A stretch of 64,000 nt of DNA from SAR324 cluster bacterium. Lineage in GTDB: Bacteria > SAR324 > NAC60-12. The stretch is from NCBI GenBank assembly GCA_015232315.1, contig JADFZZ010000018.1:1-64000 (forward strand), written 5' to 3'. The translations under genes were made by a program, and so were the position numbers. Below the pieces are notes generated by a model. That model made no database searches. It saw only the letters and a list, made by a program, of their open reading frames with translations, and had not been told where the DNA came from. Shown here piece by piece: positions 14,587 through 54,854 of this stretch; within the stretch, counting starts at the first letter, position 1; each line of letters opens with the position of its first letter.

Positions 14587-17500
14587 CTATTTCTGATCCA
14601 GTTGCAAGGAACCATCCCACTCGGCAGAAGGTGGATTTTTCAGAAACTCCTGACAACGCTTGCAATACATTTGGGAAACCACATCTTCAGGGTAGATTCC
14701 CAGGCAGGTCTCAAAATAGCCTAGGGCTTCCTGAAACTGACGGATATGGAAGTTCATCAGTCCCTGATGATACGGTTGCAAAAGGCTTTGCTTCTGGCTC
14801 CGCACCGGTTCTTCATCGGCATTGAATATCTCAAAGATGCTTTCCGGTTGGCTTTTTCCTTTCACTTTCACAAAATCCAGTTCCCGCCACAACAGATCCT
14901 GATGCGGATGCAGAAGACGCCAGGTGTGGGAGGAAATGATAATGGGGGCGTGGTATTTTTTGGTCAGTCCTTCCAGTCGTGAAGCCAGATTGACGTTATC
15001 CCCCAGCACCGTGGAACTCAGTCGGTCTTCCGAACCCACCGTTCCGAAAATCACGGGGCCACTATGGATGCCAATTCCGATGGCAATCGGTCGATATCCT
15101 GAATTTCGACGATGTCCGTTATACACCTTGACGGCTTCCTGCATGGCAATGGCGGCCTGCACTGCATTCTGTGCATCTTCTGCGTCGGTGCTTTCCTGAC
15201 TGTCAAACAGCGCCATGATGGCATCGCCAATGAATTTGTCCACAAACCCGTGATGGGCATGAATGGGGGCATTCATGCGTTTGAGGTAGGCATTGAGGAA
15301 ATTCAACAGTTCCTGGGGGGACATGGATTCCGACAGATTCGTGAAACTCCGGATATCTGAAAACAGAACGGTGATCACATCGGTTTCCGCCTTCCCCAAC
15401 TGCATCTGATCGATGCCGTCTCGTGCCAGTCTTCTCAAAAATTGTTGAGGAACAAATTTCTCGAAAGTCCGGGTCATGGCAGCGACTTTCTCACTTTCTG
15501 CCAACTGCATCCGGGTGGTTTTCAGTTCTTCATGCAGACGGGCATTGTTGATGGAGGTAGCGATCTGGGTCACATAGCGCTGAATTTGATAAATCTGTTC
15601 TTCCGATAGAGCAAAGGAGCCTTCAAGATTGGAAAATCCAATCATTCCCATCACCTTGCCCTGAACCTCCAAAGGATACATCAGAATAGCCGAAACGGGA
15701 TTCATCTGATAGGCCTTATAATCGGATTCACAAAACTGTTTTACCAAATCCGGGGTAATCTGAGGGATATAATTGAGGGCATTATAAACCACCGTCTTGA
15801 CATAAAAGCTGTTGATATTCTCCAACGAAAACATGAGTTGCCGCAACCTGGAAACAATGTTTTGATCCACATTCCCGTATAATTTTTGAAGCCTTAAAGC
15901 CTGTTTCTCAGGATCAATCAGAAGAATTCCGATCTGATCAAACCAGAAGATCTCTCTCATGGCTTCCATCGCGGCTTGCATGACTTCATCCAGATTCAGG
16001 GTTTTGTTCACAGTCTGAACCACCTGGTTGATATGCGTGATCTCCCGTTCCTTGAGTTGGATTTTTTGATGGATTCTGGCGTTCTGGAAATGATGAGCCA
16101 AATTGAGAGCGAGGTTTTCCAGAAGCTGTCGATCACTCTCTGTAAACCCTTGTTCAGGGTCATAGTGCGACACAATCACCAGACCGAAAGATTCCTGTTC
16201 GATGGTCAGGGGCACCACCATTTGCTGGATGAGGTGTCGTTGAAAATGCAGTTTGAGCGCCAGTTCCGTCGTTTGATAGCGAGCTAGAGTTTCCCTTTCA
16301 AAAATAGCGGTTTTTTGGTGATGGAAGCAGTCATAGGTATACATGGTTTCCGGCGTTACAGGCAGGGCATAGGTCTGACTATAGCGTGAGTCTAATCCGT
16401 AATTGGCGTAAAGCCTCAGCGTATTGTTTTCCGTATGATACAGCATAATGGCACCGGAACCTTCCGGACGAATGGCCTGAACGATTTCCTGAATGAAAAC
16501 CCGGGTGATTTCCTGAATATCCAGATGGACACTGACCTTCTGACTGATTTCATGCACCTGAGACAGATGACGATGAGCCTGACGGCTTTCTTCCACCAGA
16601 CGGGCATTATTGATGGCAGTGGCAATCTGCGTCACATAGTGCTGGATTTTGAGGATCTCTTCTTCGGTGAGATGAAAGGGTTTCCGGCTATGGGCAATTA
16701 CCACGGTTCCAATGGCCTGGTTCTGGACAAGCAATGGGCAGAGCAGATAGGCTTTTACAGGAATGTTGTCGTAAAATCTTCGATCCAGCGGCATAAATTT
16801 ATCAACGACTTCCGGAGTGATGGGTGAAATGTAGGCAAATTCCTGAGTCATGCACACATTGCTCACATAACTGCAATAATCTTTCAGAGGAAAAATCATT
16901 TCCTGCGCATTTCTGAAATGCTGTTCGGTAACGCCTTCTACATAATAATGATGCATTCGTAATTCTTTTTTTTGAGCATCCAGCAAAAAAATTCCAATCT
17001 GGTCAAATTCAAAAATTTCCTGCAAAGCATCCATGATGGTTTGGACAATCTCATCCAGATCCAGCGTGGTGTTTACCGCCTGAACGACCTGATTGATATG
17101 TTGAATTTCTTCCATCGCTTCATGGAGGCTTGCGGTCCGTTCCTGAACCTTGGCTTCCAGTCCCTGCAACAGTTCCAGATTTTGAATGTGAGGTCCCAGT
17201 GCCAGTCCGAGTTGATGCAGAAATTCCTGTTCCGCTACACTATAAGCAGAAGAATCGGTTTTTTCGCTAACCAACAGGAGTCCTTTCAGGGCGTCTTCCT
17301 GAAATATGGGCAGAATCCATTCCGCATGACTCAGCAGATCCTCCGGTTCCAGGCGGAACTGTTGAATCAGAATCCATTCCGCCACTTCTTCCTGATTCAT
17401 CGCTCGTTTTAATTCTGACAAACGGCTCAACAGGGGATGCTTCGAGGAGAGGATTACAGGATGTTCACTGTTATTGAGGGGATCTGCCCCAGAAAAAAAA

Positions 17501-20163
17501 CTTGCCTGAAAGCTTTGATACGACCAACCGCTAAAAGAGGAGTCCAGGTTTGTCTGAATCAACAGACTGCACTGACGGGTGGAAAAATGCTTGAACAGGG
17601 TGTAGCTGACAAACTGGTAGAGTTCCCGGAAGCGTGTCGCTTGAGATAACATCGCCATCAGGACTTTTAGAACTTGCTGAAGGTTCTCTTTCTCTTGGGG
17701 AAAGAACATGTTCAGAAGCAAGGTCCAACTGAGGGAAAATAATTTCAGAGCCAGCATCACCCCCGTGAAGCCAACGAGGGTTCCCAGAGGGGAGTCCCGA
17801 AAAAACGGAAGCTCCCACATCAGCATTACAAGCACAATGATGAACCCCGCCAAACCGGTCCAATAGAACAGATTCCGGAGCATCCTCAGCAGTTCCTTGC
17901 CATTGTGAACGAGAACCCCATAAGCAAAGAGCAGGATGGGAATAAAGGTAAAATTTCCGGGAGGATACCATTCCATGCCATTCAGGGTCGGGATGTTTCC
18001 CAGATTCAGGGTTGCGGTCACCCCAAATCCGACCATGAGGTAGAAGGCACGATGTTTTTCAAAAGTATTTTGGCTGTGAGACCAACTTTGGTAAAAAACA
18101 GCACACATATAAAAAAACTCTGCCATCCACAACCCGCTCATCAAATCAAACAAGGGAGCTTTTTGGGCAAAAAATCCCCAGGAATAAGAATACATGTCTT
18201 GGAGGTACCACGAGGTCTGAGTCAGCGGTGCCATCAACAGACTGATCCCATAAGAAAGCTTGATCAACCAGCGATGCCGTTGTTCCCCGGTGACCAAAAA
18301 CAGAAAATGAAGATTGAGTCCAAAAATAAACACAAAAAAGAAATGATCCCAGCGACTGATCTGCAATCCGAGAGCAGGATCGGTAATGAGACCATTGAGC
18401 AGAATATCCAGATTCAGAAAGCCATAGAGCAGACAGATTCCGTTGAAAACCCAGGATTCTTTTTTGTGCTCTGCCAGATAGATCAATGCCATCGACAGAA
18501 AAAAGCAGGACAGGAAGGAGAGCAAGGGAGGGATTCCATAAGGAATCAGACGCTGAAGAATATGTTCCAGAGAATAAGGACGCAAAATCCAGAATCCCAG
18601 AACTATCGCCATTCCATAAGCCAGAGGGAAGAGCCCCTGGAGCAGGGTGTTGATGATCCGTCGTTGGGTATAGACATTGAGATGGAGGAGATCATGACGG
18701 AAAATACCATAAGCCATGAATCCCAGAGGCAAAAATCCAAAGTTCCCTACAGGATAGATCACCACTCCTATCACAGGAAACAAACTGTCCAGGAAACTGA
18801 GTACCACATTGAGCAAAAATCCACTGAGGACAAAGAGAATTTCCCTCTGGGTTTCAGGAGGATGTTGTTGTTTTAAACCTCTTGCCAACAGGATGATGGA
18901 ATAAAGGATACATCCCAGGGCGAGGAAGGTCAGAAATTGATAAAGGCCCCCCGTTTGGCTTTGCCAGCCATAGGGGGTATAGAACTTGTCGGTGATATGA
19001 TAACGGGTTTGGGTGAAAGGCACGACCAGCAGGGTCAGTCCATAAAGTCCGCGTTCCAACCATTGGCGATGCTTGATAGCCAACACCCGATGAACAAAAT
19101 GGATGGTTACAGGAATGATCAATACATAGATGAGCGCGCTCCACCGTGCCAGAATCAATGCTGTTTCCCGGGAAGACACCACCAGATTGGTTACGGCATT
19201 GAAGTACCCCACGGCATGAATCAGGCAATAAAACGTGAATAATTGTTTTTTCTTTTGATTTCCGCCCAACCGGATCATCAGGGAGCCCAAGGCAAGACTG
19301 AACAGCATGGTCAGCAACGGAGGCAGGGCATACCCTCCGATGTGTTCTTTGAATAGAGGATAAAAGGTGCCTTCAGGAGACAAAATCCAAAACAGCAGAA
19401 ACACCCCGAAAGGCGCCCAGACGATCAAAGAGAGCATGGTGGGAATCCTGCTTTGTGCCAGCCAACTTCCGGAAGTGTCCAGAAATTGATGACGGAGCAG
19501 ACCATACGCCATCAGTCCCAGAGGCAGAAAACCATAATTCTGAAGATAAAGACGCTCTATTCCCAAGGCGTGCAATAAAGCGCTCAACAGGCTCAATATC
19601 CCATTCAAAAGGAGCCCTGCAAAAATAAAGAGAATTTCCTGCCGTTTTTCAGGCTTCTGACAATGCCAAAGGCCTGAGATCAGCAAACCCATGGAGTAAA
19701 GGGTCACTCCCAACGCGATGAAGGTCAGAAGTTGATAATTCAAGCCCATGTGACTCACCCATACATTTCCCTCGCGGGTCTTGTCCATGATGTGATAGCG
19801 GGTGAGTCCAAAGGGAACCAACAGGGTAATGATCAGGTAGATCCCCCGCACGAGTCCCTGACGCTTCCGGATGTCCAGGAATTGATGCACAAAATGCATT
19901 CCGATGGGGATGATAAAAACGTAAACCAGAGCCTCCAGTCGGGAGCAGAGCAGCGCCGCTTCTTTGGAAACCAGCAGAATCTGCAGGATGCCATTCAGAT
20001 AGTCCGTAGCCTGTAGCAGGCAGTAGAGGGTGAATAACTGGTTTTTCCTTTGGGTGCTGCCAGACTGAATGGTCAGGGAAGCCAAAAACAGGCTGGTCAG
20101 CAGCGAGAGCAGCAGCGGAATTGTATGGGGAAAGATAAGTTTAGTGTGAATCAGGGACTGCAT
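14587..20163 (-). CDS. Class III nucleotide cyclase with three 7TM modules and four GAF-like domains
   Basis: 1858 residues. The first 755 residues are three tandem copies of a seven-helix sensor module (about 12-228, 245-490, 505-755). Each repeats an IHFVH-type motif, a VPFxxTRYHIxDK motif and a final NFGFLPLGxMAYGxxRH motif; the third is diverged. Two more membrane helices (about 765-820) precede GAF-like domains at about 835-1000, 1030-1195, 1205-1365 and 1380-1545, the second and fourth closely alike. The cyclase domain (about 1590-1780) has metal-binding Asp1603 (FSDIRSF) and Asp1647 (KFIGDAIMALFD), Lys1643 and GDNVNLASRLE, so it should be active, most likely on ATP. The last 75 residues match the tail of the cyclase at 53157. 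Translation starts at 20163 with no strong ribosome binding site. Single gene, no operon partner. Confidence 0.93.
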   Translation of the reverse strand: MQSLIHTKLIFPHTIPLLLSLLTSLFLASLTIQSGSTQRKNQLFTLYCLLQATDYLNGILQILLVSKEAALLCSRLEALVYVFIIPIGMHFVHQFLDIRKRQGLVRGIYLIITLLVPFGLTRYHIMDKTREGNVWVSHMGLNYQLLTFIALGVTLYSMGLLISGLWHCQKPEKRQEILFIFAGLLLNGILSLLSALLHALGIERLYLQNYGFLPLGLMAYGLLRHQFLDTSGSWLAQSRIPTMLSLIVWAPFGVFLLFWILSPEGTFYPLFKEHIGGYALPPLLTMLFSLALGSLMIRLGGNQKKKQLFTFYCLIHAVGYFNAVTNLVVSSRETALILARWSALIYVLIIPVTIHFVHRVLAIKHRQWLERGLYGLTLLVVPFTQTRYHITDKFYTPYGWQSQTGGLYQFLTFLALGCILYSIILLARGLKQQHPPETQREILFVLSGFLLNVVLSFLDSLFPVIGVVIYPVGNFGFLPLGFMAYGIFRHDLLHLNVYTQRRIINTLLQGLFPLAYGMAIVLGFWILRPYSLEHILQRLIPYGIPPLLSFLSCFFLSMALIYLAEHKKESWVFNGICLLYGFLNLDILLNGLITDPALGLQISRWDHFFFVFIFGLNLHFLFLVTGEQRHRWLIKLSYGISLLMAPLTQTSWYLQDMYSYSWGFFAQKAPLFDLMSGLWMAEFFYMCAVFYQSWSHSQNTFEKHRAFYLMVGFGVTATLNLGNIPTLNGMEWYPPGNFTFIPILLFAYGVLVHNGKELLRMLRNLFYWTGLAGFIIVLVMLMWELPFFRDSPLGTLVGFTGVMLALKLFSLSWTLLLNMFFPQEKENLQQVLKVLMAMLSQATRFRELYQFVSYTLFKHFSTRQCSLLIQTNLDSSFSGWSYQSFQASFFSGADPLNNSEHPVILSSKHPLLSRLSELKRAMNQEEVAEWILIQQFRLEPEDLLSHAEWILPIFQEDALKGLLLVSEKTDSSAYSVAEQEFLHQLGLALGPHIQNLELLQGLEAKVQERTASLHEAMEEIQHINQVVQAVNTTLDLDEIVQTIMDALQEIFEFDQIGIFLLDAQKKELRMHHYYVEGVTEQHFRNAQEMIFPLKDYCSYVSNVCMTQEFAYISPITPEVVDKFMPLDRRFYDNIPVKAYLLCPLLVQNQAIGTVVIAHSRKPFHLTEEEILKIQHYVTQIATAINNARLVEESRQAHRHLSQVHEISQKVSVHLDIQEITRVFIQEIVQAIRPEGSGAIMLYHTENNTLRLYANYGLDSRYSQTYALPVTPETMYTYDCFHHQKTAIFERETLARYQTTELALKLHFQRHLIQQMVVPLTIEQESFGLVIVSHYDPEQGFTESDRQLLENLALNLAHHFQNARIHQKIQLKEREITHINQVVQTVNKTLNLDEVMQAAMEAMREIFWFDQIGILLIDPEKQALRLQKLYGNVDQNIVSRLRQLMFSLENINSFYVKTVVYNALNYIPQITPDLVKQFCESDYKAYQMNPVSAILMYPLEVQGKVMGMIGFSNLEGSFALSEEQIYQIQRYVTQIATSINNARLHEELKTTRMQLAESEKVAAMTRTFEKFVPQQFLRRLARDGIDQMQLGKAETDVITVLFSDIRSFTNLSESMSPQELLNFLNAYLKRMNAPIHAHHGFVDKFIGDAIMALFDSQESTDAEDAQNAVQAAIAMQEAVKVYNGHRRNSGYRPIAIGIGIHSGPVIFGTVGSEDRLSSTVLGDNVNLASRLEGLTKKYHAPIIISSHTWRLLHPHQDLLWRELDFVKVKGKSQPESIFEIFNADEEPVRSQKQSLLQPYHQGLMNFHIRQFQEALGYFETCLGIYPEDVVSQMYCKRCQEFLKNPPSAEWDGSLQLDQK

Positions 20164-52041: not shown

Positions 52042-53160
52042 ATGAAAAATTTTCTGATTCTGGGACTGATGGTATTATGGATCGGCTGCCCCTCCAACCT
52101 CTTCGGGGTGGAAACCGTGAAAATCGCAGCGATTTTCGGAAAAACCGGACCCGCAGCCAAAAGCAATTTATTTCATCTGCAAGGGGTTCGGTTTGCCGTA
52201 CAGACCTTGAATCAACGCAGAGGATTGCTGGGCAAGCCGGTGGAATTGGTGGAATTTGACAACCAGAGTAGCGCGCTGGGATCCCGATTTGTCACCAAAA
52301 AAGCCATTCAATCCGGAGTGATCGCGGTCATCGGCGCTTCCTGGAGTGAGCATTCCCTTGCCATGGCGCCCGTGTTGCAAGAAGCCCGAATTCCCATGAT
52401 CTCCCCCATTTCCACTGATCCGGAACTGACGCGTATCGGGAATTATATCTTTCGGGTATGCTTCACCGATGAGCTGCAAGGAAAGATTCTATCCCGTTTT
52501 GCCAGACAGGATCTGCACGCCAAAACGGCGGTGATTCTGACCAAAGTCACTCGACAGCAAAGCCGCAACATATCACAGTTGTTTCAGGAACAATTTGAAA
52601 AGACCGGCGGTACAATCCTGTGGGAAGGCGATTTTGAAGACTCCATGACGGATTTTGCTCCATTGCTGAACAAAGTCCGAAGCCTGAATCCAGACCTGGT
52701 ATTTTTTCCTTCCGGCAAGGCAGGATTCGCCATCACCCAGGCCCGAAAAATGGGAATCATCACTTTATTTTTGGGGAGCGATGGTTGGAGCGACCGTGCT
52801 TATGATTATGGCGGATCGGTGATCAAGGGAAACTATTTTACCACGCATTGGCATCGGGATGCGCCAACGCCCGTGAGTCAGGCCTTTGTCAAGGCGTATG
52901 AGGCTCAACACCACAAAATCGAAGTGAGCGGAATTCCTCTGGCTTATGATGCCGTCATGGTTTTGGCGGATGCCGTCCATCGCGCTGGAACGTTGATTCC
53001 AGCACAGATCCGTGATGCGCTGGCACAAACTCGTGACTATCAGGGAGTAACCGGACTGATCACACTGGACGAGGCAGGGGATCCGATCAAACCGGTGGTG
53101 ATTCTTCAATATGGCCCCCAAACCTCCCAATTTATTAAAATGATCGATCCCGCTTTATGA
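52042..53160 (+). CDS. Periplasmic ligand-binding protein (Leu/Ile/Val-binding type)
   Basis: 372 residues with a signal peptide and a type I periplasmic binding fold (IAAIFGKTGPAAKSN, VIAVIGASWSEHSLAMAP, IPMISPISTDPELT, TPVSQAFVKAYEAQHH). It is similar to branched-chain amino acid and urea receptors of ABC transporters, but no permease or ATPase follows. The stop overlaps the start of the HAMP cyclase by four bases (ATGA), so it is a dedicated ligand receptor for that membrane cyclase rather than a transport component. The natural ligand is unknown. Confidence 0.88.
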   Translation: MKNFLILGLMVLWIGCPSNLFGVETVKIAAIFGKTGPAAKSNLFHLQGVRFAVQTLNQRRGLLGKPVELVEFDNQSSALGSRFVTKKAIQSGVIAVIGASWSEHSLAMAPVLQEARIPMISPISTDPELTRIGNYIFRVCFTDELQGKILSRFARQDLHAKTAVILTKVTRQQSRNISQLFQEQFEKTGGTILWEGDFEDSMTDFAPLLNKVRSLNPDLVFFPSGKAGFAITQARKMGIITLFLGSDGWSDRAYDYGGSVIKGNYFTTHWHRDAPTPVSQAFVKAYEAQHHKIEVSGIPLAYDAVMVLADAVHRAGTLIPAQIRDALAQTRDYQGVTGLITLDEAGDPIKPVVILQYGPQTSQFIKMIDPAL

Positions 53161-54854
53161 ACATGACCTGGAAACTCCGACATAAGATCCTGGGCGCCCT
53201 GCTCATCAACTTTGCCATCATTTCCCTGATTTTTACCACGGTCCAGATTCCCTTTCAGGAACGTCGAACCCAAACCGTGGTGAACAAGGTCAAGTTCCTG
53301 CTGCACCGCACCATCAAACGCGATGAGGCGGCATATGCCAATCTGATTTTTGAACGCAATCTCCGTAGCCTGAATTTAAAAATCGACAGCCTCCTGAAAA
53401 TTGACGGATTGCTCACTGTTGGATTTTTTGATGAGACCGGCAAATTGCTGGCATCCGGCGGGAATCCCGTATTGAAACAGAATTTGCCACAACATCTGGT
53501 GGAAACCTTGCGCAACAGGGCTCGCATCTGGATTGCGGAGTGGCAGGGCCAAAAAACCATTCATTATGTCCAGGAAATCCGGGGATTCGGAGAACGTATC
53601 GGTTTCATCCGGTTTTATTACACGTTGCTGGATATTGAGCAGGAACAGCGATTGTCCTTTGTGATCTTCGGCAGTTTGCTGGGAAGCATCTTTCTGATCA
53701 TGGTATTGTTGCTCAGTTGGTTTTTGTCCCGTAGCATCATTTTGCCGATCGTTCATTTGCGCCGAGGCATGCGCCAGGTTCAGTCCGGAGAGCTCGGACA
53801 TCAGGTTCGGATTCCGGGAAACGATGAAATCAGCGATCTGGCCCAAGCCTTCAATCACATGTCCGAATCCCTGGCTTCGTCCTATCATCAGATCGAGCAG
53901 CAAAACACCGAACTGAAAGTCGCACGGGAACAATTGGAGGAATATGCACTGGAGCTGGAACAAAAAAATGCTATCATCGCCAGTACCGCCCATGCTTACA
54001 GTCGGTTCTTTCCGCATGAATTTCTGGAACATCTCAGCAAGCCCAGCATCGTGGAAGTGGAACTGGGCAACAGCGTGCAGCGGGAAATGTGTATTCTGTT
54101 TTCCGATCTGCGGTCGTTCACGTCTCTATCCGAAACCATGACACCCGAAGAAAATTTTCGGTTTTTGAATGCGTATCTCAGCCATATGGGACCGGTGATT
54201 CGAGGCAATCATGGATTCATTGACAAATATATCGGGGATGCGATCATGGCCTTGTTTGATCATGACGCGGATGATGCCGTCAAGGCCGGAATCGAAATGC
54301 TTCAGCAACTCAACCGTTATAACGAAACACGCACCAGCCCTTCCCGTTTGCCGATCCGCATGGGCATCGGCATCCACAGGGGATTCTTGATGCTGGGCAC
54401 CATCGGAGAGCATAAACGGATGGAAACGACCGTCATCAGCGATACGGTCAACCTGGCGTCCCGCCTGGAAGGCATGACCAAAATGTATGGGGTATCCCTG
54501 CTCATCAGTGACGCGGTGCTGCATGGCCTGCGGAAGCCTGGAGACGTGGAGGTCCGTGTCATTGACCGTGTTCAAGCCAAGGGCAAAAAAGAACCGGTGA
54601 CTATTTTTGAAATTTTCAACGGCGATCCGCCTGAAATGTTTGACATGAAAAGCATCACACGAAAACCTTTTGAAGAAGGCATTTCCCTATATCATCTCAA
54701 GGAATTCGAGGAATCCTTCCGATGCTTCCAGAAATGTCGTTCCCTGTTTCCCGACGACAAGGCCACTCAGATTTACATCAAGCGCTGTGAACACTTCCTG
54801 AAAGTCGGTTGGGATGAAGAGTGGGATGGAGTCACCCAACTGGAGATCAAATAA
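53157..54854 (+). CDS. Membrane class III nucleotide cyclase with HAMP domain
   Basis: 565 residues. Membrane helix about 10-30, a periplasmic domain to about 165, a second helix (166-190), HAMP (about 190-245), a coiled coil, and the cyclase domain (about 300-490) with metal-binding Asp317 (FSDLRSFT) and Asp361 (GFIDKYIGDAIMALFD), Lys357 and SDTVNLASRLE. The last 75 residues resemble the tail of the giant cyclase at 14587. It probably makes cAMP or cGMP when the binding protein encoded just upstream engages the periplasmic domain. No effector gene is adjacent. Confidence 0.93.
   Translation: MNMTWKLRHKILGALLINFAIISLIFTTVQIPFQERRTQTVVNKVKFLLHRTIKRDEAAYANLIFERNLRSLNLKIDSLLKIDGLLTVGFFDETGKLLASGGNPVLKQNLPQHLVETLRNRARIWIAEWQGQKTIHYVQEIRGFGERIGFIRFYYTLLDIEQEQRLSFVIFGSLLGSIFLIMVLLLSWFLSRSIILPIVHLRRGMRQVQSGELGHQVRIPGNDEISDLAQAFNHMSESLASSYHQIEQQNTELKVAREQLEEYALELEQKNAIIASTAHAYSRFFPHEFLEHLSKPSIVEVELGNSVQREMCILFSDLRSFTSLSETMTPEENFRFLNAYLSHMGPVIRGNHGFIDKYIGDAIMALFDHDADDAVKAGIEMLQQLNRYNETRTSPSRLPIRMGIGIHRGFLMLGTIGEHKRMETTVISDTVNLASRLEGMTKMYGVSLLISDAVLHGLRKPGDVEVRVIDRVQAKGKKEPVTIFEIFNGDPPEMFDMKSITRKPFEEGISLYHLKEFEESFRCFQKCRSLFPDDKATQIYIKRCEHFLKVGWDEEWDGVTQLEIK

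Follow-up and report, generated by a model that had tools for sequence, protein, structure and literature searches.

Three ordered, non-equivalent 7TM units precede a class III cyclase in an SAR324 cluster bacterium

Bacterial 7TM sensors are usually viewed as carrying one unit per receptor. In the genomes sampled here, the HisKA_7TM family (PF16927, the N-terminal 7TM region of histidine kinases) usually occurs singly, in kinases. The gene described below lies in a 64,000-nucleotide stretch of SAR324 cluster bacterium DNA, referred to as the window, and differs in placing three ordered, non-equivalent units and their linker helices ahead of a cyclase; its first unit passes the curated cut-off of the family. 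The output end resembles the CyaB- and CyaC-type class III cyclases (3r5g and 1wc0), with which it shares the catalytic domain, the metal aspartates and the Lys/Thr purine pair, but it is unlike them in being joined to an input array of 25 helices. As regards function, the comparison is with BtsS and LytS-type receptors, where a multi-helix membrane domain binds a small molecule. BtsS, a different bacterial 7TM receptor, binds pyruvate within its membrane domain (PMC10653868) and, by analogy, may provide a precedent for sensing by a 7TM unit of this kind, although receptors of that type have a single unit, unlike the array in the window. The window protein has no Pfam match to the 7TMR-DISM or LytS 5TM-5TMR domains at E values up to 10. 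We know of no 25-helix input array in CyaB- or CyaC-type cyclases. HisKA_7TM arrays are not reported in the literature searched, in which coverage of subscription papers is thin. The unit family is already known, and what is apparently undescribed are ordered two- and three-unit arrays, their 8n+1 topology and a natural head swap.

The initial annotation had described one chain carrying the same 7TM module three times, followed by four GAF-like domains and an intact class III cyclase, and this layout is upheld in its main points (Table 1). The three units, R1, R2 and R3, are each ∼226 aa long, with R2 covering residues 276-502 in the repeat HMM. In BLASTP comparisons R1 and R2 are 49% identical across 216 aa (E 7e-69), R1 and R3 are 23% identical (E 5e-17) and R2 and R3 are 25% identical (E 6e-29). 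Smith-Waterman scores for the same pairs are 516, 165 and 252, whereas 300 shuffles preserving the hydrophobic pattern reached at most 111, 60 and 65; the similarity is therefore not generic to membrane proteins, and chance hydrophobic likeness among the repeats is excluded. The repeat motifs quoted earlier can be located as MHFVH and VPFGLTRYHIMDK in R1 and as IHFVH and VPFTQTRYHITDK in R2. Two copies are indeed close, but the third, taken earlier as the diverged one, is the most typical unit, because the family profile gives R3 the highest of the three scores. The proposed link to HisKA_7TM holds directly for R1 alone (41.2 bits, with a cut-off of 28.6), whereas R2 and R3 taken alone give no match to the Pfam model. 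Their membership would follow from homology to R1 and from two relatives (L046 and L112), in each of which the model matches three stretches of the chain.

Table 1. Features of the triple-7TM cyclase gene; coordinates are positions in the window
Feature	Coordinates	Strand	Basis
Triple-7TM / GAF / class III adenylate cyclase gene, 1858 aa	14587..20163	-	Whole intact ORF
Unit R1, residues 11-237, 7TM	19453..20133	-	Repeat HMM; PF16927 2.2e-10, passes cut-off
Linker with TM8, residues 238-275	19339..19452	-	Hydrophobic 242-260, alignment-averaged profile
R1-type portion of middle unit R2, residues 276-485	18709..19338	-	Sliding comparison; AU tests
R2-type tail of middle unit and linker with TM16, residues 486-539	18547..18708	-	Sliding comparison; hydropathy
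Unit R3, residues 540-765, membrane-proximal, position-conserved type	17869..18546	-	Repeat HMM 293.8 bits; tree
TM24-25, final two helices, within residues 766-830	17674..17868	-	Hydropathy
Weak GAF-like region, residues 835-1005	17149..17661	-	GAF_2 E 0.024, fails cut-off
GAF domain, residues ∼1034/1035-1184	16612..17061	-	GAF 1e-13
GAF domain, residues 1214-1356	16096..16524	-	GAF_2 1.2e-8
GAF domain, residues 1389-1538	15550..15999	-	GAF_2 2.4e-8
Class III adenylate cyclase catalytic domain, residues 1592-1774	14842..15390	-	PF00211 1.2e-25; CyaB 3r5g alignment
Weak TPR-like C-terminal tail, residues 1785-1858	14590..14811	-	TPR_1 E 0.011, fails cut-off

Three of the four GAF regions pass the curated Pfam cut-off and the first is weak. 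The cyclase retains all six catalytic and substrate residues: two metal-binding aspartates (D1603 and D1647), the transition-state Asn/Arg pair (N1725 and R1729) and the purine-specifying K1643 and T1718. We take the pairing of K1643 with T1718 to be the class IIIb pattern. The reference for the CyaB alignment was the Pseudomonas enzyme (PDB 3r5g). The output predicted from the cyclase domain is cAMP. Promoter and terminator scans returned nothing above chance level.

A hydropathy profile averaged over the 12 paralogues of the window genome places 25 hydrophobic segments within the first 815 residues, arranged as 8 + 8 + 7 + 2: seven helices per unit, one linker helix behind R1 and another behind R2, and a pair of helices after R3. 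Neither the linker helices nor the final pair had been noted in the initial annotation. A period of eight helices implies that all units face the same way, and the predicted orientation is with the N-terminus outside; under that assignment Lys and Arg make up 26 of 130 residues in predicted inside loops compared to 15 of 205 in the other loops. Unit spacing is 259-267 aa in 12 of 12 genes of the window genome. Simple hydropathy counts for other bacteria (24-26 segments in triples, 16-17 in doubles) agree with 8n+1 helices for n units. Seven helices per unit are also supported by the AlphaFold models. A single unit is modeled confidently (pLDDT 86, pTM 0.80), with a β-hairpin joining TM4 and TM5, and its secondary structure recurs three times in the model of the whole array, where the packing of one unit against the next is uncertain (pTM 0.62). 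Searching solved structures in the PDB with the unit profile gave no sequence match up to E 1, and Foldseek found nothing at E 1e-3 or better, with TM-scores of ∼0.3-0.6 to many 7TM proteins, a likeness that is generic to 7TM folds. Neither sequence nor fold placed the unit among GPCRs or microbial rhodopsins.

The array is not confined to the window gene. Eleven further intact genes in the same genome have exactly three units each, and no intact paralogue has a unit missing. By Pfam, the output is a class III cyclase in the window gene and five paralogues (L011, L012, L013, L015 and L020), GGDEF in L017, a histidine kinase in L014 and a SpoIIE phosphatase in L021. The Pfam output scans did not include L016, L018 and L019; cyclase matches were found in L016 by other searches, while L018 and L019 have C-terminal ends similar to that of the GGDEF protein L017. 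A decayed thirteenth array gene (L022:802-2020, at ∼79304-80466 of contig C23) retains most of R1, which runs directly into GAF sequence carrying a stop and a frameshift or deletion; both R2 and R3 have been lost. Across the whole genome, 45 class III cyclase and 46 cNMP-binding domains score above cut-off, and on these counts cAMP signaling appears extensive, with a network unusually large for a genome of 5.25 Mb. Elsewhere in the window (52042-54854), a periplasmic amino-acid-binding receptor-like gene overlaps a HAMP-cyclase-like gene (53157-54854) by 4 bases, possibly forming a two-gene ligand-cyclase unit; both were read from translations, and a domain search confirmed the cyclase part alone.

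Beyond this genome the distribution is patchy, and all counts from the genome sweeps are lower bounds since scoring was limited to the best candidates of each genome. Among 52 genomes of the window phylum, units at E 1e-8 occur only in the window genome and in one other (G005), which holds one double array. That gene (L043:5558-12616) encodes a 2352-aa chain with a Ser/Thr kinase, a WD40 propeller, two 7TM units, a GAF domain and a class III cyclase. Two short peptide patterns, run against ∼85,000 species genomes and so again giving a lower bound, recovered triples in at least four deltaproteobacterial MAGs and doubles in at least four further loci. Contigs were scanned with a four-sequence alignment as the query, the whole-family alignment being too diverse. 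In 395 sampled genomes of the phylum of those MAGs the unit is present in at least 53, mostly as singles in frames of ∼660-745 aa. When full genes were read, triples were found in at least ten Desulfobacterota genomes, although in one of these (G356) the first unit is hardly recognizable (6 bits). Arrays in L083-L087 that had been taken as doubles proved to be triples with a degraded first unit once the full genes were read with a richer profile, and an apparent array without an output (L046) consists of two adjoining ORFs split at unresolved bases (XX). In the triples L104-L107 the last unit is well conserved, whereas the two before it have diverged strongly; the first unit of L107 is very weak (6 bits), and L104, the one of the four scanned by Pfam, has a GGDEF output. 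At least 44 of 296 Spirochaetota genomes have units, including several doubles, and no triple was found there among the best candidates scored per genome. Two of the Spirochaetota doubles (L051:5989-11736 and L113:936-6284) combine PAS, histidine kinase, receiver and SpoIIE phosphatase domains in one chain. The threefold array is rare overall, as had been supposed, but the window protein is not a singular case, given the 11 paralogues and the Desulfobacterota triples.

In unit trees, first, middle and last units cluster by position across genes and phyla and not by gene. Support is high for the R1-type (100/99) and R3-type (98/98) groups and less firm for the R2-type (88/91). This grouping indicates that the three types, each tied to its position, are ancient and that the triple array is older than the spread of the gene family. 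In doubles, R3 is paired with a unit of R1 type, R2 type or another kind, and in a quick tree that included single units most singles fall outside the R3 group. The sole exception to the position rule is the middle unit of the window gene, which sits among R1 units. AU tests, with groups defined after a first tree had been viewed, rejected both its placement with R2 (p 0.0006) and an R1 clade lacking it (p 0.006). In a sliding comparison this unit is a mosaic that switches from R1-type to R2-type sequence at TM7, within the conserved motif AYGxxRH; no such switch is seen in five control units. The comparison indicates that R1-type sequence later replaced most of the window R2 but left its tail in place, so that the window array would probably consist of two related sensing heads and a standard last unit.

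On balance, we lean toward a model in which the window gene encodes a multi-input receptor cyclase with serial 7TM units whose proximal unit, R3, drives the GAF-cyclase module. Three HisKA_7TM-type units would sit in tandem in the inner membrane, held in one orientation, N-terminus outside, by the linker helices after the first two. The periplasm-facing side of each unit could bind a small molecule or sense the state of the membrane, possibly giving three ligand sites, one per unit. Distal units would pass or modulate their signal through the position-specific TM7-linker-TM8 segment to R3, the putative obligatory transducer, which would act through the two final helices and a GAF relay on cyclase dimerization and hence on the level of cAMP. 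This model draws on repeats that score far above chance, on the match to HisKA_7TM, the 25 helices with their inside Lys/Arg bias, the constant unit period, the threefold recurrence of secondary structure, the positional clades and the mosaic R2. The placement of the array before cyclase, GGDEF, HisKA and SpoIIE outputs, the intact catalytic residues and the 46 genomic cNMP-binding domains available to read cAMP are also consistent with it. It is weakened by the poorly determined packing between units and by evidence that bears on the distal units.

That evidence points to the main rival, in which R3 alone senses or transduces and R1 and R2 are decaying or serve as a scaffold for oligomerization, membrane placement or a partner protein. 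The R3 type is terminal in every multi-unit array included in the trees, and an excess of conserved positions on the outer side is seen for R3 (p 0.0025) and for neither R1 nor R2, so sensing by the distal units is unsupported by that measure; the lack of an excess there is expected if distal sensing is varied and fits equally well with no distal sensing. The degraded upstream units of L104-L107 indicate that distal units can lose constraint while R3 is conserved, at least in some GGDEF-type arrays. However, in the window genome the three types show similar conservation (mean identities of 31%, 32% and 34% for R1, R2 and R3), all intact paralogues keep three units, and the middle unit of the window gene has received a different sensor head instead of decaying. 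We regard transduction by R3 alone as unlikely, although it is the alternative that fares best.

A second alternative concerns only the closeness of R1 and R2, which the initial annotation had attributed to repeated internal duplication. This proposal is mostly wrong given the ancient, position-specific types and the mosaic R2, and it is quite improbable that R1 was simply, and recently, duplicated in tandem within the window gene. Such an event would account for the window R2 being nearest to the window R1 (46-49% identity), but it should have produced four units or an R1-type tail, whereas there are still three units and the tail is R2-type. An identity of 49% is also not recent, and because the sister grouping of the two is weakly supported (92/29), the R1 of a paralogue could be the donor. 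An assembly artefact is excluded since the copies are not near-identical and lie in a single open frame on one contig. Overwriting of R2 by R1-type sequence, through gene conversion or recombination with the gene's own R1 or that of a paralogue as donor, would explain the closeness of the two copies. Least probable of all is that the array forms a single composite channel, transporter or membrane enzyme, as its transporter-like size of 25 helices and generic distant 7TM fold matches might suggest, because the units belong to HisKA_7TM, a signaling output is always attached where scanned, and unit number varies from 1 to 3 with no change in the kinds of output.

The multi-input model may extend to a general serial architecture, which we put forward tentatively, as somewhat less likely than its application to the window gene: distal, middle and obligatory proximal units, with heads swapped at a fixed TM7 junction and up to three periplasmic signals integrated into cAMP, c-di-GMP, phosphorylation or phosphatase outputs. 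If the head-swap reading is correct, the window gene is a natural example, an R1 head on an R2 tail. Receptors of 25 helices with three ordered, non-equivalent units and four output types would show how inputs can be gained by stringing modules together. The natural chimera would mark a point of module exchange, which could help in receptor engineering and in studying how signals pass between 7TM units, and the presence of 12 intact genes in one genome makes both comparison and swap experiments feasible.
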